64,000 bases of DNA, from the NCBI RefSeq assembly GCF_004403515.1, contig NZ_SOHH01000095.1, positions 381 to 64,380 of the forward strand. Reading direction: 5' to 3'. Both the position numbers and the translations under genes were made by a program. Of this stretch, positions 28,220 through 43,576 are shown one piece after another (within the stretch, counting starts at the first letter, position 1; every line of letters starts with the position of its first letter). Below the pieces are notes generated by a model. The model was not told the DNA's origin and searched no databases. It saw nothing but the letters and a program-made list of their open reading frames with translations. Origin of the DNA: Cryobacterium fucosi. GTDB taxonomy: Bacteria > Actinomycetota > Actinomycetes > Actinomycetales > Microbacteriaceae.

Positions 28220-29407
28220 GTGACACGCTCCACCCCCGCACCGACGAATGCCGTACGCCCCGCGCGCCGGGCCGGCGCGGTCACGCCGCGGCGCGCCGCC
28301 GGCCGGCTGGTCCTGTTGCTGGCCGGCGGGATCGCCCTGCTGGCCGGTCTCGACGGGGCCCTGTTGTTGCTGGGGCTGTCCGCCCCGATCGTGAGCGCGC
28401 GCTTGGCCGACGTGCACGGCCCGCTGATGGTCTTCGGCTTCGTCGGAACCGTCGTCGTACTCGAGCGGGCCGTCGCCGTGCGGAAGAAGTGGGCCTTCCT
28501 AGCCCCGGCATTCCTCGGCGCCGGGGGACTGGCCGTCCTCTCGCCGCTGCCGCTTCTGGTCGGCCGACTCGGCTTCGTCGCCGGCTCGGTCATGCTGCTG
28601 CCGATCTACCTGGTGATCTGGCGCCGGGCGCCGTCCACCTCCACCGCGGTGCAGGCCCTCGGCGCGATGCTCGGCCTGATGGCCACCGTGCTCTGGCTGG
28701 GCGGGGTGCCTGTCCCGCAGCTGGTGCCGGCGATGACCTTCTACCTCGTGCTCACGATCGCGGGGGAGCGGCTCGAGCTCGCCCGGATCTCGCCCACGGT
28801 CGACGAGCGCGCAGAGACCCGCCTGCTGGGGGTGGCCCTCTCGCTGGCCGCCGGGGTCGTGGCCGCGCTGTTCTGGCCGCTGATCGGCTACCCGCTGCTC
28901 GGGATCGGGACCCTCGCACTCGTCGCCTGGCTGTTCAGACACGATGTGGCGACCCGGCTCATCCGGCACCACGGCCTGCCGCGGTTTATGGCCGCCTGCC
29001 TGCTGGCCGGGTACGCCTGGCTGATCGTGGCCGGCGGCAGTTGGCTCATTCTCGGAGCGAGCTACTCCGGACCGGCCTACGATGCCGTGTTGCACTCGGT
29101 GTTCCTGGGGTTCGTGATGTCGATGATCATGGCGCACGCCCCGACGATTCTCCCGGCGGTGCTGCGTAGGCCGTTGCCCTATCGTCCGGCGATGTACGGT
29201 CCGGCGGTGCTCCTGCACGCCTCGCTCCTCGTGCGGGTCCTGATCGGCGATGCGCGCGGCGTGGCCGAGGCGGTTCAGTGGGGCGGGGTGGTGAACATCG
29301 TCGCCGTGCTCGCCTTCGTCGTGGTGGCCGTGGCCTCGGTGCTCCGCGGAGCTCCGGTGCCGCGCGTCTCCCCACCCACCCGCAAGACATTGGACCTCAC
29401 CTCATGA
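28220..29407 (+). CDS. NnrS-like polytopic membrane protein
   Basis: 395 aa with about eleven to twelve membrane helices. DVHGPLMVFGFVGTVVVLERAVA near the start and the late HSVFLGFVMSMIMAHAPTILPAVL resemble NnrS-type heme/copper membrane proteins linked to NO metabolism. The resemblance is moderate and the name is tentative. It overlaps nirK by ATGA, so both are made together. It may insert or protect metal cofactors, or relieve nitrosative stress (inference). Confidence 0.55.
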   Translation: MTRSTPAPTNAVRPARRAGAVTPRRAAGRLVLLLAGGIALLAGLDGALLLLGLSAPIVSARLADVHGPLMVFGFVGTVVVLERAVAVRKKWAFLAPAFLGAGGLAVLSPLPLLVGRLGFVAGSVMLLPIYLVIWRRAPSTSTAVQALGAMLGLMATVLWLGGVPVPQLVPAMTFYLVLTIAGERLELARISPTVDERAETRLLGVALSLAAGVVAALFWPLIGYPLLGIGTLALVAWLFRHDVATRLIRHHGLPRFMAACLLAGYAWLIVAGGSWLILGASYSGPAYDAVLHSVFLGFVMSMIMAHAPTILPAVLRRPLPYRPAMYGPAVLLHASLLVRVLIGDARGVAEAVQWGGVVNIVAVLAFVVVAVASVLRGAPVPRVSPPTRKTLDLTS

Positions 29408-32052
29408 GTCGCAGACTCTGGCACATTCTCACCGGCATCCTCGTGCCCGTCTGGCTGATCCTCACGCTCGTCGTGGTGCTCTTCCACCGGTTCCTGCCCG
29501 TGGCGCCCTGGCTCATGGTGCACCTGTTGCTGCTCGGCGCGGTCAGCAGCGCGATCCTGATCTGGAGCCAGCATTTCGCCGACACCCTGCTGCGGCGCCA
29601 GGCCTTCGGCGGGCGCGTCTCCCTCGGCGCGCGGCTCGGGGCGCACACCGTGGGTGCGATCCTCGTTGTCACGGGCATCGTCGGCGAGTGGTGGCCGGTC
29701 GTGGTGGCCGGCGGCATCCTGGTCGGCGCAAACGCACTCGCCCATTCGGCGAGCCTCTTCGTGCAGTCCCGCGGGGCACTCCCGGGGCGGTTCGCACCGC
29801 TCGTGCGCTACTACATCGCGGCCGGCATCATGCTGGCCGTCGGGGTCACGCTCGGGGTGCTGATGGCCCGCTCCGGCGTCGACGGCGAGCCCTTCGAGCG
29901 GCTCTTCGTCGCGCACATCGGGTTCAACCTGCTCGGCTGGGTCGGACTGACCGTGATCGGCACGGTCGCCCTGCTCTGGCCGACCGTGCTTCACGCCCGG
30001 GTGCAGACCACCCGCGCCTCCGCCAGAGGCACACTGCCCCTGTTCATCGCCGGGCTGGCACTCCTCGGCCTCGGCAGCCTGGTCGACCTTCGCCTGCTCG
30101 TCGCGGTGGGCGTGGGCGTGTACCTCGTCGGTCTCGGCCTCGTGCTGGCAGATGTCCTCCGTCTCGGGCGAGCCTCCCCGGCGGTGACGTTCGCGGGCTG
30201 GAGCCTGGGTGCGGCCCTCGCCTGGTTCTTCGTCTGCGTGCTCGGCTTCGGCCTGCTCGTGACCTTCGCCCCCGATTGGAGTGCCGCGGCAGACCGGTTG
30301 GAGCAACTGGTGCCCGTCTTCTCGGTCGGCTTCGCGGCGCAGATCCTGCTCGGCGCTCTCAGCTACCTGTTGCCGGTCGTGCTCGGCGGCGGCCCGCGGG
30401 TGTCGAAGGCGACGGCAACGGAGCTCGATCGCGGTGCGCTGTTCCGGGTGATCGTGGTCAACGTCGGCCTGATCCTCTACCAGCTGCCGATCGCCAGCCT
30501 GGTCAAGGTGGCGCTCTCCCTGCTCGTGGTGGGCACACTCTCCGCCTTCCTCGTTCTCATGGTCCGCGGGATGCGGGTCAACCGGCGGCTGCGCCGGGCT
30601 GCGGATGGCGTCCCGCCGGCGTCCGGGACGGCTCCCGCCGCAGCGGTGGCGCCGCCTCACCGCACCGGGGCCATCCTCACCGCGGCCGGTGCCCTCCTCC
30701 TGGCGGTGACGGTCGGGATAGCGCTCGATCCGGCGGCACTCGGCCTGGCGGGCGGCGCCGCGGCATCCGTCCCGCCGACCGGGCACACAACCACGGTGGA
30801 CATCGTGATGAAGGACTCCCGGTTCGTTCCCGACACGGTCAGGGTGCCGGTCGGAGACGAGCTCGTGATCAATCTGACCAACGCCGACGACATGGCGCAC
30901 AACCTCGTGCTTGCAACCGGCGTCGTCTCCGGCACGGTCGCACCGGGGGCCAGCACGGCCGTGTCCGGTGGCGTCGTCGGCGCGAACATCGACGGCTGGT
31001 GCGCGATCGCCGGGCACAAACTCCTCGGCATGGTGCTGGACGTCGTGGCGGTCGGCGCGGCTCCCGACGCCGATGCCGGGCAGGTCTCGACAGGCGGGGC
31101 CACCGAGGAGCCCGACGGGTCGACCGGGCACGGGTCGACCGGACAATCGACCGGCTCGCCGTCCGCGGCCGACGATCTCGACCTCATGAAGGAGCCGCCC
31201 GCCTCCTTCGCGGCCCGGGACGCCGTGCTGCCGCCGGCGTCCCCGGAGGCCGTGCACACCCTCACTATGAGGGTGATCAACAAGGAGATCGAGGTGTCCC
31301 CGGGGGTCACCCAGACCCTGTGGACCTACAACGGCACCGCGCCCGGGCCGACCCTGCGCGGCAGGGTGGGCGACGTCTTCGACCTGACCTTCGTCAACGA
31401 CGGCACGATAGCGCACTCGATAGACTTCCACGCCGGAGCACTGGCGCCCGACAAACCGATGCGCAGCATCGAACCGGGGGAGAGCCTGAGCTACCGGTTC
31501 ACGGCCACCCGATCGGGAGCCTGGCTGTACCACTGCGGCACGATGCCGATGTCGATGCACATCGCCAACGGGATGTTCGGTGCCGTGATCATCGATCCGG
31601 CCGGCCTCGACCCGGTCGACCGGGAGTACGTGCTGGTCCAGTCCGAGTTCTACCTGGGGCCGAACGGCGGTGAGGCCGACGGCGACAGAATCAAGACTCA
31701 GACACCGGACCTGATGGTCTTCAACGGCTACGCCAACCAGTACGCGGCCCGGCCGCTCCGCGCCCGGGCGGGCGAGAAGGTACGCGTCTGGGTGGTGGAT
31801 GCCGGGCCCAACGTCGGGAGTGCGTTCCACGTCGTCGGCGCGCAATTCGACTCCGTCTTCAAGGAGGGCGAATACCAGTTGCGGGACGGCGGCAGCACCG
31901 GCACCGGCGGCGCCCAGGTTCTCGACCTGGCGCCGGCGCAGGGCGGATTCGTCGAGCTCACCTTCCCGGAGGTCGGTCACTATCCCTTCGTCAGCCACGT
32001 CATGTCCGACGCCGAGAAGGGCGCGCGCGGCATCTTCTCCGTTGGGCCGTGA
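29404..32052 (+). CDS. nirK: Copper nitrite reductase NirK fused to a membrane domain and an extra cupredoxin
   Basis: 882 aa. Residues 1 to about 450 are a polytopic membrane domain of roughly a dozen helices. A cupredoxin follows with a full blue-copper set: His499, Cys533, His538, Met543. After a Ser/Thr/Gly linker (~560-600) comes the two-domain nitrite reductase. Type 1 copper ligands are His671, Cys711, His719 and Met724; type 2 ligands are His676, His710 and His865; Asp674 and His809 fit the catalytic pair. The enzyme reduces nitrite to NO outside the membrane, and the tethered cupredoxin probably delivers electrons. ATG 29404 overlaps the upstream stop. Confidence 0.9.
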   Translation: MSRRLWHILTGILVPVWLILTLVVVLFHRFLPVAPWLMVHLLLLGAVSSAILIWSQHFADTLLRRQAFGGRVSLGARLGAHTVGAILVVTGIVGEWWPVVVAGGILVGANALAHSASLFVQSRGALPGRFAPLVRYYIAAGIMLAVGVTLGVLMARSGVDGEPFERLFVAHIGFNLLGWVGLTVIGTVALLWPTVLHARVQTTRASARGTLPLFIAGLALLGLGSLVDLRLLVAVGVGVYLVGLGLVLADVLRLGRASPAVTFAGWSLGAALAWFFVCVLGFGLLVTFAPDWSAAADRLEQLVPVFSVGFAAQILLGALSYLLPVVLGGGPRVSKATATELDRGALFRVIVVNVGLILYQLPIASLVKVALSLLVVGTLSAFLVLMVRGMRVNRRLRRAADGVPPASGTAPAAAVAPPHRTGAILTAAGALLLAVTVGIALDPAALGLAGGAAASVPPTGHTTTVDIVMKDSRFVPDTVRVPVGDELVINLTNADDMAHNLVLATGVVSGTVAPGASTAVSGGVVGANIDGWCAIAGHKLLGMVLDVVAVGAAPDADAGQVSTGGATEEPDGSTGHGSTGQSTGSPSAADDLDLMKEPPASFAARDAVLPPASPEAVHTLTMRVINKEIEVSPGVTQTLWTYNGTAPGPTLRGRVGDVFDLTFVNDGTIAHSIDFHAGALAPDKPMRSIEPGESLSYRFTATRSGAWLYHCGTMPMSMHIANGMFGAVIIDPAGLDPVDREYVLVQSEFYLGPNGGEADGDRIKTQTPDLMVFNGYANQYAARPLRARAGEKVRVWVVDAGPNVGSAFHVVGAQFDSVFKEGEYQLRDGGSTGTGGAQVLDLAPAQGGFVELTFPEVGHYPFVSHVMSDAEKGARGIFSVGP

Positions 32053-32349: not shown

Positions 32350-34755
32350 GTGGTCCGATTGAAAACCGGGGCCGAGAAGCTGCGCTCTGAGCTGCTGGTC
32401 TCCAAGGGGTGGTTGCAGGGCGTCGCCCTCGTGATGATCTTCGGCTTCGCCGTGATGGGATTCATTGCCCTGCGCACCTACTCGGACTCGATGCCACAGC
32501 CGAAACAGGTGGTCAGCGCATCGGGCGAGGTGGTCTTCACGAGCGCCGAGATCACCGCCGGCCAGCAAACCTTCCTGAGGCGCGGCCTGCAGCAATACGG
32601 CTCGATCATGGGGCACGGCGGCTATCTCGGACCCGACTACACCGCCGACTACCTGCGACGCTCGGCCACCTTCGTGCTCGACGCGCTCACGGCCTCCGGC
32701 ATCCAGGACCCGCAGGGCGCACTCGTGGAGATGATGCGCACCAACCGCTACGACGCGGCAACCGGCGACCTGGAGTTCACCACCCTGCAGATCGAGGCCT
32801 TCGACTCCCTCAAGGCCTACTACGGCGACTACTTCGGTGAACCGAGCACCAAGTACGGCCTGATTCCGAACGCGATCTCCGATCCGGAAGACATCCACGA
32901 ACTGACCGCGTTCTTCGCCTGGACATCCTGGGCCGCCTCGGCGGAGAGGCCGGGACACAATTACTCCTACACGAACAACTGGCCGGCCGAGCCGCTGGTG
33001 GACAATTCCCCGACGGCGGACATCATCGTCTGGAGCGGCCTGTCCCTGGTGGCCCTGATGGTCGCCCTCGGCGCACTCTTCGCCCTCTATGGGAGGTGGA
33101 GCAAGCAGATGGGCTGGCAGCACGGCGAGGAGGCCAAGGCGCTGTCCTTCCGCCAACCGGGCGAGGTCGCGGTGACCCCGGCGCAATCCGCCACCGCCTG
33201 GTTCTTCCTGGTGGTCGCCCTGATGTTCCTCGCCCAGGCCTTCCTGGGTGCGGCCATCGAACACTATCGGGTCGACCTGACGAGTTTCTTCGGCTTCGAC
33301 CTGGCCCGACTACTGCCCTTCAATCTGGCCAGGACGTGGCATGTGCAGCTGTCCTTGCTCTGGACGGCAACCTCGTTCCTCGCCGCAGGAATCTTCCTGG
33401 CGCCGTATATCTCGGGGCGTGAGCCCAGGCGCCAGCACTGGCTCGCCTATGGTCTGCTCGGCGCCCTCGCCGTGGTCATCCTCGGCTCCTTCGTCGGTGA
33501 GGCACTCAGCATCTTCGGCGTCACGGCCGTGGAGGGATCGCCGTTCTGGGACATGCAGTGGGAGTACCTCGATCTGCCCAGGGTCTGGCAGGGCATGCTC
33601 GTCGTGGGCCTGTTCCTCTGGATCGCGATCATCTACCGCGGCATCCGTGCCCGACTGAAGACCGAGCACCGGTTCAATCTGCCGTGGCTGTTCTTCTACG
33701 CCGGCCTCGCCATTCCGGCGTTCTACGCCGTCGGCATGCTCGCCGGCGCCGAGGTTCGACTGAGCGTCGCCGAGTTCTGGCGCTTCTGGGTGGTGCACCT
33801 GTGGGTCGAGGACTTCCTCGAACTGTTCACGACTGTCATGGTGGCGTACATCTTCGTGATGCTCGGCGTCGTGCGCCGCAAGATCGCCATGCAGATCATC
33901 CTGCTCGATGTGATCCTGTACTCCGCCGGCGGCATCCTGGGCACCATGCACCACCTCTACTTCTCCGGCGGGCCCGTCGAGACCATGGCGGTCGGCGCGT
34001 TCTTCTCCGTGCTCGAGGTGATTCCGCTGACCTTCCTCACCATCGAGGCGTGGAGCTTCCTGCAACTCGGAGCGCGCCAGGAGTCTCGAAGTTCCGCACC
34101 CTTCCCGCATCGCTGGGCGGTGATGTTCCTGGTTGCGGTTGGATTCTGGAACTTCCTCGGGGCGGGTGTCTTCGGCTTCCTGATCAACCTGCCGATCGTC
34201 TCCTACTACGAGATCGGCACGGCCCTCACAGCCAACCACGCCCACGCGGCCATGATGGGCGTGTACGGGATGATGGGCGTCGGACTCTCGCTGTTCGCCC
34301 TGCGCTATCTCATCCCAGCCGATCGATGGCCGGATCGGCTCGCCAAGATCTCCTTCTGGTCGCTCAACATCGGCCTCGCCTGGATGACGTTCGCGACGCT
34401 GCTGCCGCTGGGCGTGATCCAGCTCTGGTACTCGATCAACGACGGCTACTTCGAGGCGCGCAGCCTCAACTTCATCAACGAACCCGGCAATGCCGTGCTC
34501 GAGTGGCTGCGGATGCCCGGCGACCTGGTCTTCATCCTCGGTGGTGTCGTTCCGTTCGTCTGGATCGCCTGGCTGGGCGTGCGGTACCGGATTCGGGGCA
34601 CGACCCAGGACGTGCCGATGGAGACGCTCTTCGTGGAGGCGCAGCCGGTGCCGGCCTTCGGCGCAGACGAGGTTCCCGAATCCGGCTACGGCACGGGGTA
34701 CCGGACCCGGGGCACGGAAGAGGATGGCGGGAATCGCCCGATCGGGGGCGCGTGA
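32350..34755 (+). CDS. norZ: Quinol-dependent nitric oxide reductase (qNOR/NorZ)
   Basis: A 801-aa single-subunit NO reductase that reduces two NO to N2O with electrons from quinol. After the first helix an extracytoplasmic NorC-like part follows (GQQTFLRRGLQQYGSIMGHGGYLGPDY), then the twelve-helix NorB core. Conserved pieces include FNLARTWHVQLSLLW, WVVHLWVEDFLELFTTVMVAY, GTMHHLYFSG and TANHAHAAMMGVYGMM, carrying the heme and FeB histidines. The GTG start has AAGGAAAGG upstream. It leads a four-gene coupled operon. Confidence 0.95.
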   Translation: MVRLKTGAEKLRSELLVSKGWLQGVALVMIFGFAVMGFIALRTYSDSMPQPKQVVSASGEVVFTSAEITAGQQTFLRRGLQQYGSIMGHGGYLGPDYTADYLRRSATFVLDALTASGIQDPQGALVEMMRTNRYDAATGDLEFTTLQIEAFDSLKAYYGDYFGEPSTKYGLIPNAISDPEDIHELTAFFAWTSWAASAERPGHNYSYTNNWPAEPLVDNSPTADIIVWSGLSLVALMVALGALFALYGRWSKQMGWQHGEEAKALSFRQPGEVAVTPAQSATAWFFLVVALMFLAQAFLGAAIEHYRVDLTSFFGFDLARLLPFNLARTWHVQLSLLWTATSFLAAGIFLAPYISGREPRRQHWLAYGLLGALAVVILGSFVGEALSIFGVTAVEGSPFWDMQWEYLDLPRVWQGMLVVGLFLWIAIIYRGIRARLKTEHRFNLPWLFFYAGLAIPAFYAVGMLAGAEVRLSVAEFWRFWVVHLWVEDFLELFTTVMVAYIFVMLGVVRRKIAMQIILLDVILYSAGGILGTMHHLYFSGGPVETMAVGAFFSVLEVIPLTFLTIEAWSFLQLGARQESRSSAPFPHRWAVMFLVAVGFWNFLGAGVFGFLINLPIVSYYEIGTALTANHAHAAMMGVYGMMGVGLSLFALRYLIPADRWPDRLAKISFWSLNIGLAWMTFATLLPLGVIQLWYSINDGYFEARSLNFINEPGNAVLEWLRMPGDLVFILGGVVPFVWIAWLGVRYRIRGTTQDVPMETLFVEAQPVPAFGADEVPESGYGTGYRTRGTEEDGGNRPIGGA

Positions 34756-35570
34756 TGGGTGCGGTCGACCCGGAGGTCTGGTTCGCACTGGCCTACGGGG
34801 GCTTTCTGCTCCTCGTCGCACTCGTTCTGGATCTGGCCGCCCGCCGCACGGCGACGAACTCGAGCAACGCCCGTCAGGGCGGGTTCAGCTACCAGCAGGA
34901 CCACGATGCGTGGAAGTGCTCGGAGGACCAATGGCTCTGGCCGATCTCCTTCGACCCGGAAAACCGGGTGACCCGCTACCGGGCGTCGCCGACAGTCTGC
35001 AATCCCTGTCCGGTGAAACATACGTGCACCACCGGCCATTCCGGCCGGGAGGTCGTTCGGAATATCGACTCCTGGCCCAGCTCCGAGGCCGAGCGGTTCC
35101 ACCGCGGGATCGCCTGCGCCGTCGTCGTGCTCGGCTTCGTCTGGCCGGTCGCCGTCATGTTCCAGGGCCGTAGCACCGTGGAACTGGCTCTGCTCGGGGC
35201 CGCATCGGCAAGTATTGCCGCCGGCAGCTGGCCGTTGTGGTCCCACCTTCGGCGCGTTCCCGCCCGCTTCCCGGACCACCTCAAGTCCGAAGGACTCGAT
35301 GAAAACGTCGCGGCCAGGGCCACCGCCGCGGCCGGAGAACTCGCACGGCACACCGGCTACGGCAGCGTGCGACGGACCGGGCGGCGCCCGATCCAGATCG
35401 AACCGCACTCCAGCCCGGGGGGCTCGGCCACGGCGGAGACCACCTCGGCTGCGACGAAAGGAAACACCGTGACATCCGCATTCTCCACCCGATGGGCCGA
35501 ACTGGAGCGGGAGGCCGACCCAGGCGGCTCAGGCGGGGGCGCGGGTTGGACCGGAGGGGACGCACGGTGA
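34755..35570 (+). CDS. Membrane protein with a transposase-like Cys4 module
   Basis: 271 aa, coupled to norZ by TGATG and to the slipin by GTGA. One helix is near the N-terminus (WFALAYGGFLLLVALVLDLAA), a second pair lies at about 120-165, and the tail is charged. Between them sits a four-cysteine motif, C55-X26-C82-X2-C85-X5-C91, in a context (RYRASPTVCNPCPVKHTC, then GREVVRN) like the Cys module near the C-terminus of IS1182-type transposases. It has no transposase catalytic domain. A metal or Fe-S site serving NO reductase is possible but unproven. Confidence 0.65.
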   Translation: MGAVDPEVWFALAYGGFLLLVALVLDLAARRTATNSSNARQGGFSYQQDHDAWKCSEDQWLWPISFDPENRVTRYRASPTVCNPCPVKHTCTTGHSGREVVRNIDSWPSSEAERFHRGIACAVVVLGFVWPVAVMFQGRSTVELALLGAASASIAAGSWPLWSHLRRVPARFPDHLKSEGLDENVAARATAAAGELARHTGYGSVRRTGRRPIQIEPHSSPGGSATAETTSAATKGNTVTSAFSTRWAELEREADPGGSGGGAGWTGGDAR

Positions 35571-36400
35571 CAGGCATTCTCGTGACCGTCGCGGTCGGCC
35601 TGGCGCTGATCGCCGTCTGGCTGCTCGCTGCGTTCAAGGTTCTGCAGGAGTACGAGCGGGGTGTTACCTTCCGCTTCGGTCGCCTCCGGGCGCTCCGTCA
35701 ACCCGGCGTGCAGATGATCTTCCCCGGGTTGGACCGGATGGTGCGGGTCGACCTGCGGATCGTGACGCTGACCATTCCGCCGCAGGATGTCATCACCAAG
35801 GACAACGTTCCCGCCCGCGTCAACGCCGTCGTGCTCTTCCAGGTCACCGACCCGGTGCGCTCGGTGATGGCGGTCGAGAACCACGCCGTCGCCACCTCGC
35901 AAATGGCGCAGACGACGCTACGGTCGGTCGTCGGCCGCGCCGACCTGGATACCCTGCTCGCCCATCGAGCCGACCTGAACGAGGACCTCGCGCGCAGCAT
36001 CAACGCCCAGACCGAACCGTGGGGCGTGCAGGTGAAGGTGGTCGAGATCAAGGATGTCGAGATCCCGCAGGCCATGCAACGCGCCATGGCCCGTGAAGCG
36101 GAAGCCGAACGCGAGCGGAGGGCGAAGATCATCAACGCCCACGGCGAGCTGCAGGCCTCCGAGGAGCTTGGCCAGGCGGCGGAGATACTCAGCCGCAACC
36201 CGGCCTCCCTGCAGCTGCGCTATCTGCAGACCCTGCTCGAACTCGGCGCCGACCACAACTCGACCGTGGTCTTCCCGCTGCCGATGGATATCATCGGGCC
36301 CTTTCTGAACAAGGTGCCCCAATGGCTGGACAAGCAGGGTGCAGCCGGCCCCGCGTCCGGCCACGGGGACACCGATCAGACCACGGAGGAGAACCACTGA
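35567..36400 (+). CDS. Slipin (stomatin/prohibitin family)
   Basis: 277 aa. One N-terminal membrane helix (GILVTVAVGLALIAVWLLAAF) is followed by a band-7/SPFH domain (VLQEYERGVTFRFGRLR, VDLRIVTLTIPPQDVITKDNVPARV) and a coiled coil rich in Glu/Arg/Ala (MAREAEAERERRAKIINAHGE). Slipins form membrane microdomain scaffolds, often with an NfeD partner; no NfeD is here. Coupling to norZ suggests a scaffold for NO reductase (inference). GTG overlaps the preceding stop. Confidence 0.92.
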   Translation: MTGILVTVAVGLALIAVWLLAAFKVLQEYERGVTFRFGRLRALRQPGVQMIFPGLDRMVRVDLRIVTLTIPPQDVITKDNVPARVNAVVLFQVTDPVRSVMAVENHAVATSQMAQTTLRSVVGRADLDTLLAHRADLNEDLARSINAQTEPWGVQVKVVEIKDVEIPQAMQRAMAREAEAERERRAKIINAHGELQASEELGQAAEILSRNPASLQLRYLQTLLELGADHNSTVVFPLPMDIIGPFLNKVPQWLDKQGAAGPASGHGDTDQTTEENH

Positions 36401-36705
36401 TGCCTGAATCACTGATGCCTGACGCCTCACCACGCTCGGACCGGCCGACCGACAAGAACACGCCGGCGTCTGCGCAGGACCGTGCCCGCTGCATCCGATT
36501 GATGCTGATCGGCGCCTTTGTCGGAATCTTCGCTCCGATCGCCGGTTTCCTCGGCGGCACGATGGTGGGGATCGACGACACCGTCGGCCGTTTCGGGCCG
36601 ATCTTCGTCTGGCTGTTCGCCGGCATGGTCGTCGGTGGCATCGGTGTTGCGATCGGGGTTCTCGGCGCCCTGCGCTGGGTGAAGGGGAAGCACCACCTCC
36701 AGTGA
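36400..36705 (+). CDS. Small two-helix membrane protein
   Basis: 101 aa, coupled to the slipin by TGATG. A polar N-terminus of ~30 residues, then two membrane helices (LMLIGAFVGIFAPIAGFLGG and FVWLFAGMVVGGIGVAIGVLG) and a short basic tail. No family recognised. As the last gene of the norZ operon it may be a small accessory subunit or assembly factor. A second ATG, 15 nt downstream, is also possible. Confidence 0.7.
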   Translation: MPESLMPDASPRSDRPTDKNTPASAQDRARCIRLMLIGAFVGIFAPIAGFLGGTMVGIDDTVGRFGPIFVWLFAGMVVGGIGVAIGVLGALRWVKGKHHLQ

Positions 36706-36725: not shown

Positions 36726-36810
36726 GTCGAATTCGACGGAGATTTTCGCGATCTGCCGCAGCAGGGCCCGGTTTATGGCCGGAAACGGGAAAATGTCCGT
36801 CGAATTTGAC
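36726..36810. terminator. Inverted repeat between convergent norZ operon and radical SAM gene
   Basis: Arms at 36726-36747 and 36789-36810 are 22 nt long with two mismatches, around a 41-nt spacer. The outer part of the left arm, GTCGAATTCGAC, is itself a perfect palindrome. The right arm touches the stop codon of the radical SAM gene. It is placed to end transcription from both sides, without a T-tract. Confidence 0.55.
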
Positions 36811-38009
36811 TAGGCGGCGGGGGTGGCGGCCGCGTTCTGGGACGGCGCGGGAATGGCGCCGGTGGCGGGCTGGTAGGCGCAGCTGGGGTCCTCGGCGAGG
36901 GGATCCCCGGAGACCGCGTAGGCGTGCGACCGGGAGCCGCCGCAGACGGTGCGGAATTCGCACCGGCCGCACCGGCCGCCGAAGGAATCCGGGGTGCGCA
37001 GCTCCTGGAGTAGCCGCGCCTCCCGGTAGATTTCGGGGAACGGGGTGTCCCGGACCGAGCCGACCGCAACGGGTAGGAAACCGCTCGGGTAGACCTTGCC
37101 CACGTGGTCGACGAAGGCGAACCCGCGGCCGGAGTTCACGTCGATCGGGGGCCGGGGCATCCGTCGCCGGGGCTCATTCCCGGTGAGCAGCCCCTCCGTG
37201 GCCTCCCGCAGGGCCGCGCGGAGCGGACCGACCGGGAACACCGAGTCGAGGTCGGCCACGCCGGCCCGCTGCAGGGCGATGCGCCGGTAGTGCGGCGCCT
37301 CGGTCGCCTTGATCGCGACCAGGTCGGAGACGTCGTGCAACCAGTGCAGCACCTCTTCCTCCTCGGCCGCGGTCAGGGCGTCCAGGAGCTTCCCCCGGCC
37401 GGTGGGCACCAGGAAGAAGACGCTCCACAGGGTGGTCCCGAGGTCCAGCACAGTCCTCAGGATCCCCGGCAGCTCGTGCACGGTGTCCCGGGTGACGGTG
37501 GTGTTGATCTGCAGGCGATAGCCGACGTCCCGCACCATCCGGGCCGCGACCATGGTGTCGTCGAAGACGCCGTCCACGCCCCGGAACGCATCGTGGGTGG
37601 CGGCGGACGCGCCGTCGAGCGACAGCGAGACCGCCTTCGCGCCGGCCTCGTGCAGCCGGGCCAGCACCTTTCGGGTGAGGCGCGGGGTGACCGAGGGGGA
37701 GAGGGCCATGCTCAGGCCGAGGCTGGTGCCGTGGGCGACCAGTTCGGGCAGGTCCGGTCTTTCGAACGGGTCACCCCCGGTCAGCACGACCAGGGGGCGG
37801 GGGGTGCCGAAGGAGGCCAGGTCGTCCAGGAGCTTCCGGCCCTGTTCGGTGCTCAGCTCGAACGGGTTGCGGGTGCGGATCGCGTCCGCCCGGCAATGGG
37901 TGCAGACGAGCTGGCAGGCGCGGGTGACCTCCCAGATGACGATGAAGGGGCGTTCGCCGGCGTCGTGGTGCATGAGACGGATCGGTCGTTTGGCTGGTGA
38001 CGTGGTCAC
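36810..38009 (-). CDS. Radical SAM/SPASM protein (TIGR04053-like)
   Basis: 399 aa. The radical SAM cluster motif is TRACQLVCTHC (CX3CX2C), with TGGDPF as the SAM-binding GGE-like motif and SLDGASAATHDAFR downstream. The C-terminal SPASM region begins CGRCEFRTVCGG and ends with SCAYQP, giving ligands for an extra Fe-S cluster. It resembles the family that includes heme-modifying enzymes of the AhbD/NirJ kind, but its substrate is not assigned. GTG at 38009 is divergent from the HTH regulator pair, which may control it. Confidence 0.8.
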   Translation of the reverse strand: MTTSPAKRPIRLMHHDAGERPFIVIWEVTRACQLVCTHCRADAIRTRNPFELSTEQGRKLLDDLASFGTPRPLVVLTGGDPFERPDLPELVAHGTSLGLSMALSPSVTPRLTRKVLARLHEAGAKAVSLSLDGASAATHDAFRGVDGVFDDTMVAARMVRDVGYRLQINTTVTRDTVHELPGILRTVLDLGTTLWSVFFLVPTGRGKLLDALTAAEEEEVLHWLHDVSDLVAIKATEAPHYRRIALQRAGVADLDSVFPVGPLRAALREATEGLLTGNEPRRRMPRPPIDVNSGRGFAFVDHVGKVYPSGFLPVAVGSVRDTPFPEIYREARLLQELRTPDSFGGRCGRCEFRTVCGGSRSHAYAVSGDPLAEDPSCAYQPATGAIPAPSQNAAATPAA

Positions 38010-38171: not shown

Positions 38172-39002
38172 ATGCCGACCGAAGCGATCGATCCCCGCGG
38201 CCACGCCGTGCTGTCGGGAATCAGCAGGGTCGCCGTGCTCGAGGTTCTGCGGGCCAGCACCGAGCCGCTCAGCGCGGATGCCATCGCCGCCCGGGTGGGG
38301 CTGCATGCGAACACGGTGCGCTCCCACCTCGACCGCCTGACCGAGGCCGGGCTGGTCACGGAGGCAGCGGAGGCGCTGGGCAGGCCAGGTCGGCCCCGGC
38401 TGCTTTTCCGCTCCGCGCCGTCACCCGAGGACGCACCCGTGGACTCCTACCGTGTGCTGGCCGGCATCCTCGCCGAGGGCATGGCCGCCGGCGCGACCGG
38501 CGCGCAGGCGACGGGTGCACCGGCCGGTGCAACGCCTGGTGCGCGGACCGGTGCCGACGCGGCCGCCCTGGCCGGCAGTCGTTGGGGACGGCGACTCGCC
38601 ACCGCCCGCAACGAAGCCGACTCGGCGGCCTCCGCCGATGCGGCCGCCCCGTCCGCCGGCCGGGCCCACGCGCTCGAACGCGTCGTCGCGATCCTGGACC
38701 AGGTCGGCTTCTCGCCCGTGCTCGGCGGGCCGGACCACGGCGCGCCCACCGGGACGGCATCACTCGCAGACGACGCCCCCGTCGTCATCGAATTGCACCG
38801 CTGTCCTTTCATCGACGTGGCGCGCAGCCAGGCCGACATCGTCTGTTCCCTGCATCGCGGCCTGATCCAGGGTGCCCTCGAGCGCCTCGACGCGCCGTTC
38901 GGACGGGTCGCCCTCGAACCGTTCGCCCGCCCCGGCGTATGCCTGGCCCGCCTCGAGCCCGAACCGCTGCAGGCTTCCCTTTCGGCCGCCCACGCTGAAT
39001 GA
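38172..39002 (+). CDS. HTH regulator with C-terminal cysteines, paralogue A
   Basis: 276 aa. The N-terminal winged helix (SADAIAARVGLHANTVRSHLDRLTEAGLV) is followed by an Ala/Gly-rich linker of ~70 residues and a C-terminal domain with C211-X13-C225-X31-C257 in HRCPF and CSLHRGLIQGAL contexts. The layout matches ArsR/SufR-like regulators that hold an Fe-S cluster, and functionally recalls ArnR of corynebacteria, which represses nar genes (family knowledge; direct orthology not shown). Position between nirK/norZ and narGHJI makes it a likely redox or NO sensor. Confidence 0.75.
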   Translation: MPTEAIDPRGHAVLSGISRVAVLEVLRASTEPLSADAIAARVGLHANTVRSHLDRLTEAGLVTEAAEALGRPGRPRLLFRSAPSPEDAPVDSYRVLAGILAEGMAAGATGAQATGAPAGATPGARTGADAAALAGSRWGRRLATARNEADSAASADAAAPSAGRAHALERVVAILDQVGFSPVLGGPDHGAPTGTASLADDAPVVIELHRCPFIDVARSQADIVCSLHRGLIQGALERLDAPFGRVALEPFARPGVCLARLEPEPLQASLSAAHAE

Positions 39003-39009
39003 TTGACAA

Positions 39010-39708
39010 ATGACGTCTCGCCAGCCGTCGAGCTACCGCACGCTCGCCTCGTTCAGCAGGATCCAGCTCCTGCACTTCCTTCAGCAGCGCGGCACGATGA
39101 CCGTCGGTGACCTCGCCGAGGCCACCGGCCTCCACCACAACACCACTCGGGAACACCTGCAACGCCTGATCGGCGACGGCTTCGTCACCTGCGAGCCCGA
39201 GATCACCGAGACGAAGGGCCGCCCCCGAATGCTCTACAGCGCGGCCGGCGGAGCCGACCGACAGGCCGGCTGTGTCCGGGAGGCGAAGGCCGACGCCGCC
39301 GAGCGCCGCGGCGACCTGGTGCGGCGGATGCTGCCCCTCCAGGCCATCCTGCACTCACCGCTGCAGCGACAGCTCGACGCCCTCGACGACCACCTCGACC
39401 AGACCGGGTTCGACGCGACCCTCGACTCCGACGGCGAGCATGTGCACCTGCACGACTGCCCGTACAGCGAGATGGTCAAGGCGCACCCGGAGGTGTGCCG
39501 GGTGCACTTCGGCCTGATCAAGGGTCTGCTCGAACAGGCGGAGGGTCCACTCGCCGCCGAGGCGCTGCATCCGCTGGTCGGATCGAACCTGTGCACGCTT
39601 GACCTGCACCGCGCCGAACCGGTACCGGCCGACGAACCCGAACGCGAACCCGAACGCGAACCCGCAGGCGCACCCGCAATCATTTATCACGGTGTTTTCG
39701 GCTTGTAG
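39010..39708 (+). CDS. HTH regulator with C-terminal cysteines, paralogue B
   Basis: 232 aa, 7 bp after paralogue A. The winged helix is TVGDLAEATGLHHNTTREHLQRLIGDGFV. The C-terminal domain has C150-X12-C163-X31-C195 in HDCPY and CRVHFGLIKGLL contexts, the same plan as paralogue A. The tail carries a short PEREPERE repeat. Two paralogues in one operon could form a heterodimer or respond to different signals (nitrate-linked redox state, NO). Confidence 0.75.
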   Translation: MTSRQPSSYRTLASFSRIQLLHFLQQRGTMTVGDLAEATGLHHNTTREHLQRLIGDGFVTCEPEITETKGRPRMLYSAAGGADRQAGCVREAKADAAERRGDLVRRMLPLQAILHSPLQRQLDALDDHLDQTGFDATLDSDGEHVHLHDCPYSEMVKAHPEVCRVHFGLIKGLLEQAEGPLAAEALHPLVGSNLCTLDLHRAEPVPADEPEREPEREPAGAPAIIYHGVFGL

Positions 39709-39787
39709 CCCTCTGCCCGGACCGTGAGACTCGGATGCGAGGGTGGTCGCTGACTGCGGCGACGCCCGGCACCGCAAGGGGTACCTC

Positions 39788-42700
39788 GTGAAACCAGCCA
39801 AGACCTCCGCCTTCTCGAAGCCCGCCCGCGGCAAGCCGGCCGGTAGACCCGGCACCGACGGGCCCCTCACCGACACGATCCTGAACCTCGGCCGGTTCCT
39901 CCGCCGGGGCGAGACGTCACCCGACCTGCGCTCGCTCTTCCTCGAGGGCGGCCGGGACGCGGACAGCTTCTATCGTGACCGCTGGACCCACGACAAGGAG
40001 GTGCGGTCCACCCACGGGGTGAACTGCACCGGCTCGTGCTCGTGGAAGGTGTACGTCAAGGACGGCATCATCACCTGGGAGACCCAGCAGACCGACTACC
40101 CCTCGGTCGGGCCGGATTCGCCGGAGTACGAACCCCGCGGCTGCCCGCGCGGCGCCGCCTTCAGCTGGTACACCTACTCGCCGACGCGGGTGAAGTACCC
40201 CTATGTGCGCGGGGTGCTGCTCGACCTGTACCGCGAGGCGAAGGCCCGCACCGGCGACCCGGTGCTCGCCTGGGCCGACGTCACCGGCAACCCCGAGTCC
40301 GCTCGCGCGTACAAGAGCGCCCGCGGCAAGGGCGGCCTCGTGCGGGCCAGCTGGGACGAGGCCGCGGAGATCGTCGCCGCCGCCCACGTGCACACGATCA
40401 AGAAGTTCGGACCGGACCGGATCGCCGGGTTCTCGCCGATCCCCGCGATGTCGATCGTCTCGCAGGGGGTCGGCAACCGGTTCATCACCATGCTCGGCGG
40501 CACGATGCTCTCCTTCTACGACTGGTACGCCGACCTGCCGGTCGCATCGCCCCAGGTGTTCGGCGACCAGACCGACGTGCCGGAATCCGCCGATTGGTGG
40601 AACTCGTCCTACCTGATCATGTGGGGCTCGAACGTTCCCGTCACCCGCACCCCGGACGCCCACTTCATGGTCGAGGCCCGCTACAAGGGTCAGAAGGTCA
40701 TCACCGTCTCACCCGACTACGCCGACAACTCCAAGTTCGCCGACGAGTGGCTGGCCGTGCACCCGGGCACCGACGGCGCCCTCGCCATCGCCATGGGCCA
40801 CGTCGTGCTGAAGGAGTTCCTGGTCGACCGGCGCACGCCCCGCTTCGTCGACTACATGAAGCGCTACAGCGACTCCGCCTACCTGATCGCCCTCACCCCG
40901 CGCGGCGACGCCTACGTGCCGGGTAAATTCCTGACCGCGGATGCACTGCCCGACACGTCCTCGACCGTCGCCAGCGCCGCGTTCAAGCCCGTGCTACTCG
41001 ACCAGGACGGCCGGGCGATCGTGCCGAACGGGTCGATCGGCCACCGCTTCTCCGAGACCGACGTCGGCAAGTGGAACCTCGACCTGGAAGGCGTCGATCC
41101 TCTGCTCTCGATCATGGACGCTCCGGACTACGACCGGGCATCCGTCGAAATCGACCTGCCACGGTTCGATATCGCGCCGGAGACCGAAGACGCCGGTGAG
41201 CGGCAGGCGGGCGGTGCCGGCATCATCCGTCGCGGCGTGCCCGTGCGGATGGTCGGCGGCCAGTTGGTCACGACCGTCTTCGACCTGCTCCTGGCCCAGT
41301 ACGGCGTCGGCCGGGACGGGCTTCCCGGGGTGTGGCCGACCGGCTACGACGACGCATCCTCGCCCGGCACCCCCGCCTGGCAGGAGGGCCTCACCTCGGT
41401 GCCGATGCAGGCCGCCGAGCGGATCGGCCGCGAGTTCGCCCAGAACGCGGAGGACTCCGGTGGGCGCTCGATGATCCTGATGGGCGCCGGCACCAACCAC
41501 TGGTTCCACTCCGACACCATCTACCGCGCCTTCCTCGCGCTGACCACGATGACCGGCTGCCAGGGCGTGAACGGCGGCGGCTGGGCCCACTACGTCGGCC
41601 AGGAGAAGTGTCGCCCGGTCACCGGCTGGGCGCAGTACGCCTTCGGCCTGGACTGGGTGCGCCCGCCCCGCCAGATGATCGGCACCGGCTACTTCTACCT
41701 GGCGACAGACCAGTGGCGCTACGATGGCCTGTCCGCCGACACCCTGGCGAGCCCGCTCGGCGTGGGAACGTTCAAGGACCGCACGACGGCCGACTGCCTG
41801 GTCGAGTCGACCCAGCGCGGTTGGATGCCCAGCTACCCCACCTACAACCGCAACTCGCTCGACCTCGTCGACGACGCCGAGCGCGCCGGCGTCGACCCGG
41901 CCCAGTACGTCGTCGAGTCCCTCGGCGACGGCAGCCTCGCCTACTCGGTCGAGGACCCGGATGCGCCGGAGAACTTCCCCCGGGTGCTCGTGGTCTGGCG
42001 GGCGAACGTGCTCGGCTCCTCCGGAAAGGGCAACGAGTACTTCCTCAAGCATCTGCTCGGCACCACCTCGGCCATCCGCGCGCCTGAGTCCCCGCCGGAG
42101 AAGCGCCCGAAGACGATGAAGTGGCACGAGTCCGCGCCGGAGGGCAAGCTCGACCTGCTGGTGACGAGCGACTTCAGGATGACGTCGACGACCGTGTTCA
42201 GCGACGTGGTGTTGCCCCCCGCCACCTGGTATGAGAAGAACGACCTGTCGACGACGGACATGCATCCGTTCATCCACTCGTTCAACCCGGCGATCGCCCC
42301 GCCTTGGCAGGCGAAGACCGACTTCGACATCTTTCACGTCCTCGCCGAGAAGATCTCGGAGTACTCGGTGGAGCATCTCGGAGTGCGGAAGGACCTTGTC
42401 GCCGTTCCGCTCTCGCACGACACCCCGGATGCGATGGCCACCCCGCACGGGATCGTGCTGAACGACCAGCCGCTCATCCCCGGGATCACGATGCCGAAAC
42501 TCGTCGTGGTCGAACGCGACTATCCGGCCTTCGCCGCCCGGCTCGGCGCCCTCGGGCCGCTCACCGCGAAGCTCGGCATGGTCACCAAGGGGGTCAAGTT
42601 CAACCCCGACGTCGAAGTCGAATACCTCGGCAAGAAGAACGGTCTCGTGGCGAGCGGCCCGGCCGCCGGCCGGCCGAGGCTGACCACGGCCATCCACGCC

Positions 42701-43576
42701 TGCGAAATGGTACTCGCCCTCTCCGGCACGACCAACGGCCGGCTCGGCACCCAGGGCTTCCGGCAGCTGGAGGAACGCACCGGCATGAAGCTCGCCCACC
42801 TGGCCAGCGACAACGAGGGCCGCCGCTTCTCCTATCCGGATGTGCAGGGCGCGCCGGTCCCGGTGCTCACCTCCCCTGAGTGGTCGGGCAGCGAGCACGG
42901 CGGGCGCCGGTACAGCGCGTTCACGATCAACGTCGAGCACCTCAAGCCGTGGCACACCCTGACCGGGCGGCAACACTTCTACCTCGACCACGACTGGATG
43001 ATCGAACTGGGGGAGCAGCTGCCGATCTTCCGGCCGCCGCTGGACATGCACCGCCTGTTCGACGACTCGATCGTCGGCTCCACGGCCGCCACCGGCGCCA
43101 CGGGGTCGAAGGGTCGCGCCGAGGTGGCCGTGCGCTACCTGACCCCGCACTCGAAGTGGTCGATCCACTCCGAATACCAGGACAACCTGATGATGCTCTC
43201 GCTCTCCCGCGGCGGGCCGACCATCTGGATGTCGCCGCTCGACGCCGACAAGATCGGCGTGCGCGACAACGAGTGGATCGAGTCCTACAACCGAAACGGC
43301 GTCGTCGTCGCCCGCGCGGTCGTCTCGCACCGGATGCCGGAGGGCACCGTGTACATGTACCACGCGAAGGACCGCACGATCAACGTGCCGATCGCCGAGA
43401 CCAGCGGGATGCGCGGCGGCACGAACAACTCGCTCACCCGCATCCTGCTCAAGCCCAGCCACCTGATCGGCGGCTACGCCCAGCTGTCCTTCGCCTTCAA
43501 CTACCTCGGCCCGACCGGGAACCAACGCGACGAGGTCACCGTGATCCGTCGACGCAGCCAGGAGGTTGAGTACTAG
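39788..43576 (+). CDS. narG: Respiratory nitrate reductase alpha subunit NarG
   Basis: 1262 aa, the Mo-bisMGD catalytic subunit of membrane-bound nitrate reductase, facing the cytoplasm. The FS0 cluster motif HGVNCTGSCSWKVYVKDG lies near residue 80, and YEPRGCPRGAAFSWY and the molybdopterin-binding segments follow to the C-terminus. GTG at 39788 is chosen because AAGGGG lies 8 nt upstream; an in-frame ATG at 39743 would add 15 unlikely residues. The cofactor comes from the moa/moe/mob genes in this window. narH follows without a gap. Confidence 0.96.
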   Translation: MKPAKTSAFSKPARGKPAGRPGTDGPLTDTILNLGRFLRRGETSPDLRSLFLEGGRDADSFYRDRWTHDKEVRSTHGVNCTGSCSWKVYVKDGIITWETQQTDYPSVGPDSPEYEPRGCPRGAAFSWYTYSPTRVKYPYVRGVLLDLYREAKARTGDPVLAWADVTGNPESARAYKSARGKGGLVRASWDEAAEIVAAAHVHTIKKFGPDRIAGFSPIPAMSIVSQGVGNRFITMLGGTMLSFYDWYADLPVASPQVFGDQTDVPESADWWNSSYLIMWGSNVPVTRTPDAHFMVEARYKGQKVITVSPDYADNSKFADEWLAVHPGTDGALAIAMGHVVLKEFLVDRRTPRFVDYMKRYSDSAYLIALTPRGDAYVPGKFLTADALPDTSSTVASAAFKPVLLDQDGRAIVPNGSIGHRFSETDVGKWNLDLEGVDPLLSIMDAPDYDRASVEIDLPRFDIAPETEDAGERQAGGAGIIRRGVPVRMVGGQLVTTVFDLLLAQYGVGRDGLPGVWPTGYDDASSPGTPAWQEGLTSVPMQAAERIGREFAQNAEDSGGRSMILMGAGTNHWFHSDTIYRAFLALTTMTGCQGVNGGGWAHYVGQEKCRPVTGWAQYAFGLDWVRPPRQMIGTGYFYLATDQWRYDGLSADTLASPLGVGTFKDRTTADCLVESTQRGWMPSYPTYNRNSLDLVDDAERAGVDPAQYVVESLGDGSLAYSVEDPDAPENFPRVLVVWRANVLGSSGKGNEYFLKHLLGTTSAIRAPESPPEKRPKTMKWHESAPEGKLDLLVTSDFRMTSTTVFSDVVLPPATWYEKNDLSTTDMHPFIHSFNPAIAPPWQAKTDFDIFHVLAEKISEYSVEHLGVRKDLVAVPLSHDTPDAMATPHGIVLNDQPLIPGITMPKLVVVERDYPAFAARLGALGPLTAKLGMVTKGVKFNPDVEVEYLGKKNGLVASGPAAGRPRLTTAIHACEMVLALSGTTNGRLGTQGFRQLEERTGMKLAHLASDNEGRRFSYPDVQGAPVPVLTSPEWSGSEHGGRRYSAFTINVEHLKPWHTLTGRQHFYLDHDWMIELGEQLPIFRPPLDMHRLFDDSIVGSTAATGATGSKGRAEVAVRYLTPHSKWSIHSEYQDNLMMLSLSRGGPTIWMSPLDADKIGVRDNEWIESYNRNGVVVARAVVSHRMPEGTVYMYHAKDRTINVPIAETSGMRGGTNNSLTRILLKPSHLIGGYAQLSFAFNYLGPTGNQRDEVTVIRRRSQEVEY

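Follow-up and report, generated by a model that had tools for sequence, protein, structure and literature searches.

Results

A nitric oxide reductase gene set with a cysteine-bearing membrane protein

The stretch of DNA analysed here (the window) comprises 64,000 nucleotides of Cryobacterium fucosi, a member of the Microbacteriaceae (contig NZ_SOHH01000095.1, positions 381 to 64,380 of the forward strand), and its subject is a nitric oxide (NO) reductase gene set in which norZ is followed by cys4, encoding a membrane protein with four cysteines, by a slipin gene and by the gene of a small membrane protein. The four genes are consecutive on the + strand and overlap (32350-36705; Table 1). A first-pass annotation had proposed these open reading frames (ORFs) and had read translational coupling from the junctions TGATG, GTGA and TGATG; all four ORFs and all three junctions are present at the positions it gave. 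The spacing C55-X26-C82-X2-C85-X5-C91 that it had noticed in Cys4 is likewise exact and lies between membrane helices.

Table 1. Coordinates of the norZ gene set and of the features of Cys4 in the window
Feature	Position	Strand	Basis
norZ, quinol-type nitric oxide reductase (qNOR), single polypeptide	32350..34755	+	GTG start; Pfam and PDB qNOR matches
cys4, three-helix membrane protein with predicted cytosolic IS1182-type Cys4 module	34755..35570	+	ORF; 80 homologous loci; positive-inside topology; AlphaFold (AF2) model
Cys4 transmembrane (TM) helix 1 (about residues 8-28)	34776..34838	+	hydropathy (80 homologues); model helix 6-41
Cys module, Cys4 residues 44-107 (C55, C82, C85, C91)	34884..35075	+	NCBIfam IS1182; hhalign; strand match
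Cys4 TM helices 2 and 3, with WP-S-S-E-RFHRG motif before them	35106..35234	+	hydropathy; model helices 111-135 and 141-157
Cys4 tail tag YGSVRR (strict motif Y[AG]S[DEIVQ]R[RK])	35358..35375	+	motif search
Cys4 second tail motif FSTRWA	35481..35498	+	motif search
Slipin / stomatin-type SPFH protein, norZ-operon clade	35567..36400	+	GTG start; Band_7; stomatin structures; tree
Small two-helix membrane protein, optional member	36400..36705	+	no Pfam/NCBIfam family; homologue in 57/80 loci

NorZ matches the Pfam families NorB_cytochrome_c-like (8.9e-55) and COX1 (5e-51) and aligns with solved qNOR chains of the PDB (4.5e-149) over residues 21-739, nearly its whole length. The alignment keeps the segments HLWVE, HHLY and HAHA, which we take to be the site of the metal ligands. 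As a single chain with a cytochrome-c-like domain fused to a haem-copper oxidase core and with these metal-site segments, NorZ is by alignment an ordinary member of the qNORs, a group known as single-chain enzymes, and quinol-dependent NO reduction is its predicted activity.

cys4 accompanies norZ across actinobacterial families

A single scan across 84,980 species genomes turned up 110 relatives of cys4, and the best 80 of these were kept and analysed; the scan patterns EDQWLWP and WP[SY]S[ED][AS][EG]RF bias the conservation of those stretches, and the cysteines lie outside them. In every one of the 80 loci cys4 is preceded by norZ, complete or partial, and followed by slipin. norZ is a contig-edge stub in two of them (L043, L067) and a weaker piece displaced by 1.1 kb in a third (L040), and a gap of 284 bases (L096) or 525 bases (L098) separates slipin from cys4 in two more. 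When each start was placed at the start codon closest to the preceding stop, norZ and cys4 overlap in 65/80 loci and cys4 and slipin in 68/80. A homologue of the small gene (phmmer, E <= 1e-3) was found in 57 of the loci and none in the remaining 23. In our trees the loci are drawn from families that include Microbacteriaceae, Micrococcaceae, Dermabacteraceae, Ornithinimicrobiaceae, Propionibacteriaceae, Nocardioidaceae, Mycobacteriaceae, Corynebacteriaceae, Gordoniaceae, Nocardiaceae, Promicromonosporaceae and Streptosporangiaceae, a spread that rules out a local oddity of Cryobacterium. A record titled as an Acidobacteria metagenome-assembled genome (L026) has the actinobacterial norZ-cys4-slipin-small set and is probably mis-binned.

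The association was also counted starting from norZ, in partly overlapping samples of 198 (order), 396 (phylum) and 325 (class) genomes, which yielded 25 distinct genomes whose norZ is full-length, partial matches in G070 and G362 being excluded. Here cys4 adjoins norZ in 22 and slipin does so in 18, and all 18 slipin loci have cys4; the 7 genomes of the order sample with full-length norZ are the same 7 that have cys4. The first-pass annotation would have given up its proposal if cys4 did not co-occur with norZ outside close relatives or if the cysteines were not conserved among orthologues. In these three actinobacterial samples the co-occurrence reaches far past close relatives, and all four cysteines are kept in 80/80 homologues. 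In the phylum sample the Cys4 alignment matches 18/396 genomes, the weak matches falling on transposase-like ORFs.

A plasmid search with Cys4 gave no match at 1e-3. Five of 73 plasmid norZ records, chosen by hand, were examined, and their ORFs were searched with the Cys4 profile; nothing there scored better than E 0.34 except a protein of the Streptomyces sp. NBC_00271 plasmid (L133). On this plasmid norZ is followed by an overlapping gene (8346-8735) for a protein of 129 residues, P0005, which aligns with the RFHRG-TM2-TM3 part of Cys4 (E 8.6e-10) and has neither the Cys module nor cysteines. Three transposase genes lie inside the 14 kb examined.

The Cys module is homologous to a module of IS1182 transposases

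The exact spacing C-X26-C-X2-C-X5-C is found in 79 of the 80 homologues and is therefore more than chance. The Cys4 of Pengzhenrongella frigida (L082) has two residues fewer between the third and the fourth cysteine (CNACPNSC), which may be a real variant or a sequencing error.

The window Cys4 reaches the cut-off of no Pfam or NCBIfam family. The NCBIfam IS1182 model (NF033551) matches residues 40-114 with an E-value of 7.3e-9, below its cut-off: just 74 of the 488 model positions (354-427) are covered, scoring 35 bits where the cut-off is 270, and Cys4 is not a full transposase by this model. There is no DDE core, in agreement with the annotation, which had found no nuclease domain. It had also likened the context of the cysteines to IS1182-type transposases, and the likeness proves stronger than it had claimed, a measurable homology over about 70 residues. 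Among 64 Cys4 family members IS1182 matches all 64 at E <= 1 (best 2.6e-12). The check it had proposed against Pfam DDE_Tnp_1_6 likewise gave matches across the family: 60/64 members match at E <= 1 (best 5.5e-5), and for both models the window protein stays under the curated cut-offs.

Profile-profile alignment with hhalign, for which L082 was omitted and 10 IS1182 and 30 WhiB modules were picked by pattern, joins the Cys module to IS1182 at 99.1% over 77 columns, which take in, besides the cysteines, F, D, R-Y-A, G-R and R. Sixteen IS1182 transposases share the invariant residues D335, Y338, F373, C384, C411, C414, C420, R427 and E462 (numbering of L113). Six of these, F373, C384, C411, C414, C420 and R427, correspond to F44, C55, C82, C85, C91 and R98 of Cys4 at an offset of 329; F44 and the four cysteines are invariant in the 64 members, and R98 is kept in at least 90%. 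The strands that AlphaFold predicts in Cys4 at 45-47, 52-54, 60-67, 72-76 and 99-103 recur in the transposase, in a separate run and alignment (block confidences 85 to 94), at 374-376, 381-383, 389-396, 401-405 and 428-432, and the offset is again 329 for all five. By our own assignment D335 and E462 presumably supply the DDE triad with its second D and its E; if this holds, the Cys module is located between them.

A tree was built from 45 modules, 22 of them from cys4. These 22 make up a single clade (100/99); together with 14 IS1182 modules it belongs to a larger group, from which the remaining 9 IS1182 modules are separated (100/96). Because the cys4 modules form one clade beside one IS1182 subset, the tree favours a single transfer from a transposase to a membrane protein; resting on 76 columns, with branches that are long and a bootstrap that had yet to settle, it supports this without proving it. 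The cys4 profile likewise singles out one subset of IS1182, with matches of 1e-16 to 1e-8, the other IS1182 reaching 1.6e-4 or worse. An IS1182 subset of deep-branching actinobacteria (L111-L124, from genomes of family f34 and, for L119, f41) carries a Cys module that closely resembles the one in Cys4, frequently with identical spacing; other IS1182 subsets differ.

Could two lineages have converged on a four-cysteine site, cys4 having no transposase history? The shortness and unsettled support of the module tree would allow it, as would the fact that WhiB, unrelated to Cys4 over its length, also matches weakly (43/64 members at E <= 1, best 0.0022). Convergence leaves unexplained that the 77-column match extends to non-cysteine positions, that the strands coincide individually at one offset, that one IS1182 subset is singled out by the profile, and that the alignment with WhiB extends over no more than 31 columns, at 68%; we regard it as highly improbable. 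That same comparison rules out a module derived from WhiB, and in the window Cys4 the Pfam Wbl domain reaches 13.4 bits against a cut-off of 23.6, too low for a Wbl domain to be assigned. RseC_MucC matches 3/64 members at E <= 1 (best 0.046), again short of a domain assignment. A transposase remnant or pseudogene is ruled out by the open frames and by the cysteines kept in every homologue, and in its own genome cys4 is the sole match of the IS1182 model at E <= 0.001. On profile, strand and tree comparison, then, the Cys module is homologous to that of IS1182 DDE transposases, and we infer that it originated from such a transposase. The IS1182 transposases may themselves be metalloproteins.

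Predicted topology and metal site of Cys4

The net charge per protein (n=80) is -0.7 before TM1, +2.0 after TM1, +0.5 before TM2, -0.5 between TM2 and TM3 and +1.5 after TM3. By the positive-inside rule this shows a predicted topology with the N-terminus outside, one helix, a cytosolic Cys module, two further helices and a cytosolic tail. The AF2 model of Cys4 has a pLDDT of 78. A profile search of the PDB with Cys4 returned two LIM kinase chains at E 0.6, and one with IS1182 returned none at 0.1.

Cys4 carries the ligand pattern C-Xn-C-X2-C-X5-C of [4Fe-4S] proteins, a resemblance of pattern. CX2CX5C with a distal cysteine is also the pattern of Cas4, AddB and endonuclease III. WhiB sequences of the same order have C-X22-C-X2-C-X5-C or C-X27-C-X2-C-X5-C. 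WhiB proteins hold [4Fe-4S] clusters and WhiB1 responds to NO, according to the part of the source available to us (PMC5741622). The accessible text on RseC describes a membrane-anchored cytosolic CX2CX5C domain with an oxygen-sensitive, reconstituted [4Fe-4S] cluster (PMC11729352), and that on Cas4 and AddB a shared arrangement of CX2CX5C plus a distal cysteine (PMC3466216). Given these patterns in WhiB, Cas4/AddB, endonuclease III and RseC, the cysteines of Cys4 probably hold a metal centre, for which [4Fe-4S] is a better guess than zinc.

The slipin, the small protein and a shared tail peptide

The third gene encodes an SPFH protein (Band_7, 2e-39, 135.9 bits against a cut-off of 23.6), and the profile of its family matches stomatin structures at 2.2e-84. 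Operon slipins form one clade (97/99) in 24 of 25 rows, separate from 22 other SPFH rows, which stem from 30 loci fetched among more matches listed (L257, having no match, was dropped). L259 is the row outside the clade; its neighbours are two very long rows, and its place may reflect an artefact of ORF boundaries. The genome has three further SPFH genes. No Pfam or NCBIfam family matches the small protein.

The cytosolic tails of NorZ and Cys4 share a peptide, Y[AG]S[DEIVQ]R[RK], mostly YASDRR. It was first spotted by eye, in some of the loci in which it was then counted; tails were cut out for NorZ (77/80), Cys4 (80/80) and slipin (67/80), and the 57 small proteins were included. This strict tag stands in 28/77 NorZ tails and 32/80 Cys4 tails, in both at 20 loci; it occurs in 0/67 slipin tails, in 0/57 small proteins, in none of 970 other ORFs that these loci contain (306,056 residues), and close to never in shuffled tails. 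Neither protein has it at 37 loci, Cys4 only at 12, NorZ only at 8 and both at 20 (Fisher p 9e-5, uncorrected for kinship). The NorZ tail has it at 0/8 slipin-less loci (L133, L141-L145, L217, L224) and at 3/11 slipin-bearing loci of the class and phylum samples (L138-L140, L215, L216, L218-L223), numbers too small to link the tag to the slipin. That two unrelated proteins of one operon carry the same rare tail peptide suggests a shared binding partner, with the slipin as the obvious candidate. Another tail motif, of the type FSTRWA or YSTRWGG, occurs in 34/77 Cys4 tails, 2/77 NorZ tails and 2 of the 970 other ORFs. The LF-E motif of the NorZ tail, considered as a cys4-linked mark, is weakened as such by its presence in norZ without cys4.

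Surroundings of the gene set

The norZ set sits in a nitrate/nitrite respiration island, between a nirK-like fusion gene upstream and a NarG-type gene downstream. The fusion, an ORF of 924 residues (29278-32052, +) just upstream of norZ, has a Cupredoxin_1 domain (5.8e-9) followed by a copper nitrite reductase-like region (TIGR02376, 3.6e-49, below cut-off), and its N-terminal half looks membrane-embedded by eye. A radical SAM gene (36810-38009, -) and two helix-turn-helix regulators (38172-39708, +) separate the norZ set from the NarG-type molybdoenzyme gene (39743-43576). Three ORFs in narHJI order follow it, named from their order and from their sequence starts by eye rather than by family search.

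Discussion

The proposal of an accessory set for NO reductase is genetically well supported by the co-occurrence with norZ, the kept cysteines and the family-wide profile matches; what does not stand is a fixed set of four genes, as slipin and the small gene vary. The parts belong to known families (qNOR, SPFH, the IS1182 module), and Cys4 is, as we rate it, a previously unrecognised accessory protein. Among the matches listed in a search of the open PMC literature, which leaves subscription papers outside, there is no description of the norZ-cys4-slipin set, and 'nitric oxide reductase' and 'SPFH' do not occur together. In the accessible part of a Rhodococcus equi paper that names qNOR, stomatin and SPFH go without mention (PMC13332983).

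Our favoured explanation, held tentatively and at a little under an even chance, is that cys4 encodes a dedicated accessory subunit of actinobacterial NorZ with a cytosolic metal site, probably [4Fe-4S], and that a ring of the slipin encloses both. The helices of Cys4 and its WP-S-E-RFHRG motif would hold it to NorZ in the membrane, where its cytosolic cluster may sense redox state or NO and thereby stabilise, regulate or protect the enzyme. The slipin ring would gather NorZ and Cys4 as a membrane compartment, and the tag common to both tails is a candidate docking signal.

The cluster would not be a catalytic electron path of NorZ; such a role is unlikely because a Streptomyces norZ has a cys4 relative without cysteines. 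This relative also bears on the idea that Cys4 is a cytosolic electron entry, its cluster feeding NorZ from a soluble donor and by-passing quinol. The available text on RseC places a membrane-bound CX2CX5C domain in a putative electron-transfer system (PMC11729352), which is what recommends the idea. NorZ, for its part, aligns with quinol-dependent enzymes along nearly its whole chain, and the loci examined have no further gene in common beyond slipin and the small gene; together with the Cys-less form these points make an electron entry very unlikely.

Several observations weigh against a dedicated subunit in a slipin ring. Two genomes (G274, G477) have norZ without cys4 or slipin, and a third (G714) has norZ without cys4 and a short Cys-less protein in its place, of weak homology (E 0.18). 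Conversely, cys4 pieces were found without norZ in two phylum-sample genomes: that of G585 begins at a contig end, and that of G533 (L227), interrupted by a stop, is taken as a decayed or mis-assembled copy. Near the latter lies an ORF that resembles, by eye, the start of an SPFH protein. Slipin is missing in 4/22 sampled norZ-cys4 pairs (norZ-cys4 in G434, G569 and G412, norZ-cys4-small in G786), and the ring is therefore not essential. The strict tag is missing in 49/77 NorZ tails and 48/80 Cys4 tails, and most slipin-bearing loci are without it in NorZ; in the window Cys4 has YGSVRR and the NorZ tail just a degenerate GYGTGYRTRG. The Cys loop of the Cys4 model is of low confidence (blocks 61 and 71), and Foldseek found no solved relative of the model in the PDB at E <= 0.001. 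The exceptional loci and the Cys-less Streptomyces protein lead us to regard norZ-cys4 as the core, slipin as frequent, the small gene as optional and the Cys module as separable.

Also adverse is the zinc found, in the portion of the source at hand, in an AddB/Cas4-like nuclease structure with such a four-cysteine arrangement, where it stands in for an Fe-S cluster (PMC3466216). Cys4 might then be a structural adaptor, whose zinc-stabilised module tethers NorZ to slipin or another cytosolic partner with no redox chemistry. A structural role is plausible for the same predicted strands in a DDE transposase, and the Cys-less relative would fit an adaptor as well. The [4Fe-4S] proteins in which CX2CX5C plus a distal cysteine occurs, RseC and the WhiB sequences, point the other way, and strict conservation of the cysteines in an NO context hints, without proving it, at more than packing. 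We judge the zinc adaptor unlikely, though a serious contender.

The last points against a dedicated subunit concern other phyla. At 4/4 plasmid norZ loci outside the Actinobacteria (Sphingobium, Methylosinus, Shewanella, Desulfosarcina) no cys4-like partner was found, the gene tables being incomplete. To our knowledge non-actinobacterial qNORs function without such a partner, and qNORs of other phyla need no maturation factor of this kind. The same facts count against Cys4 as a maturation factor that serves the insertion of FeB (the non-haem iron) or haem into NorZ, as NorQ and NorD do for cNOR. The position of cys4 directly behind norZ, mostly overlapping it, and the cytosolic placement of the Cys module by charge agree with maturation, and by the part of the source consulted cNOR cannot receive its FeB without NorQ and NorD (PMC9976466). 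Nothing like an AAA+ ATPase or VWA domain appears among the families listed for the 64 members, and we consider this role doubtful, behind the zinc adaptor and ahead of an electron entry.

A more specific form of the favoured reading would have the IS1182 Cys module captured once and turned into an NO-reactive [4Fe-4S] subunit, with the tag gathering NorZ and this subunit in a dedicated stomatin-like ring. Taken whole it is improbable; if it were true, IS1182 transposases would themselves carry an Fe-S cluster and there would be an NO-reducing membrane compartment. Soil is rich in actinobacteria, whose NO reductases produce the greenhouse gas N2O or remove NO. If NorZ has a conserved metal-bearing partner and a membrane scaffold, part of the enzyme escapes structural or heterologous studies of NorZ on its own. 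The fate of the transposase would be unusual too, the metal module and not the DNA-cutting or DNA-binding part having been incorporated in a membrane protein, and the shared tail tag offers a direct and cheap handle on cargo choice by a bacterial slipin.

How does the set compare with known systems? NorZ resembles the solved qNOR chains 28pn, 3ayf and 6fwf in near full length, both domains and the metal-site segments, and the actinobacterial norZ differs in the conserved partner gene behind it. IS1182 transposases share with Cys4 the F..Y, the C-X26-C-X2-C-X5-C (in one subset), the G-R and the same strands, whereas Cys4 has no DDE core and carries the module between membrane helices, fixed in an operon. 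The WhiB-like (Wbl) proteins have four cysteines with CX2CX5C and, in the text accessible to us, a [4Fe-4S] cluster and the NO response of WhiB1; their match to Cys4 covers 31 columns, and Cys4 is a membrane protein that lacks the G[VI]WGG region. RseC and RnfF of the SoxR-reducing and Rnf systems, as far as the sources available describe them, offer a comparison of working rather than of fold: they too are membrane proteins with a cytosolic CX2CX5C, but have two helices. Like cys4, norQ and norD are accessory genes of an NO reductase, in the part of the literature at hand; they belong to another enzyme type, and no domain in common with Cys4 was seen. SPFH rings, finally, corral membrane proteins, stomatin domes in general and HflKC in the case of FtsH, by the portion of the report available (PMC12407830). 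The operon slipin is of this stomatin type, but forms its own clade beside norZ, and its cargo is putative.

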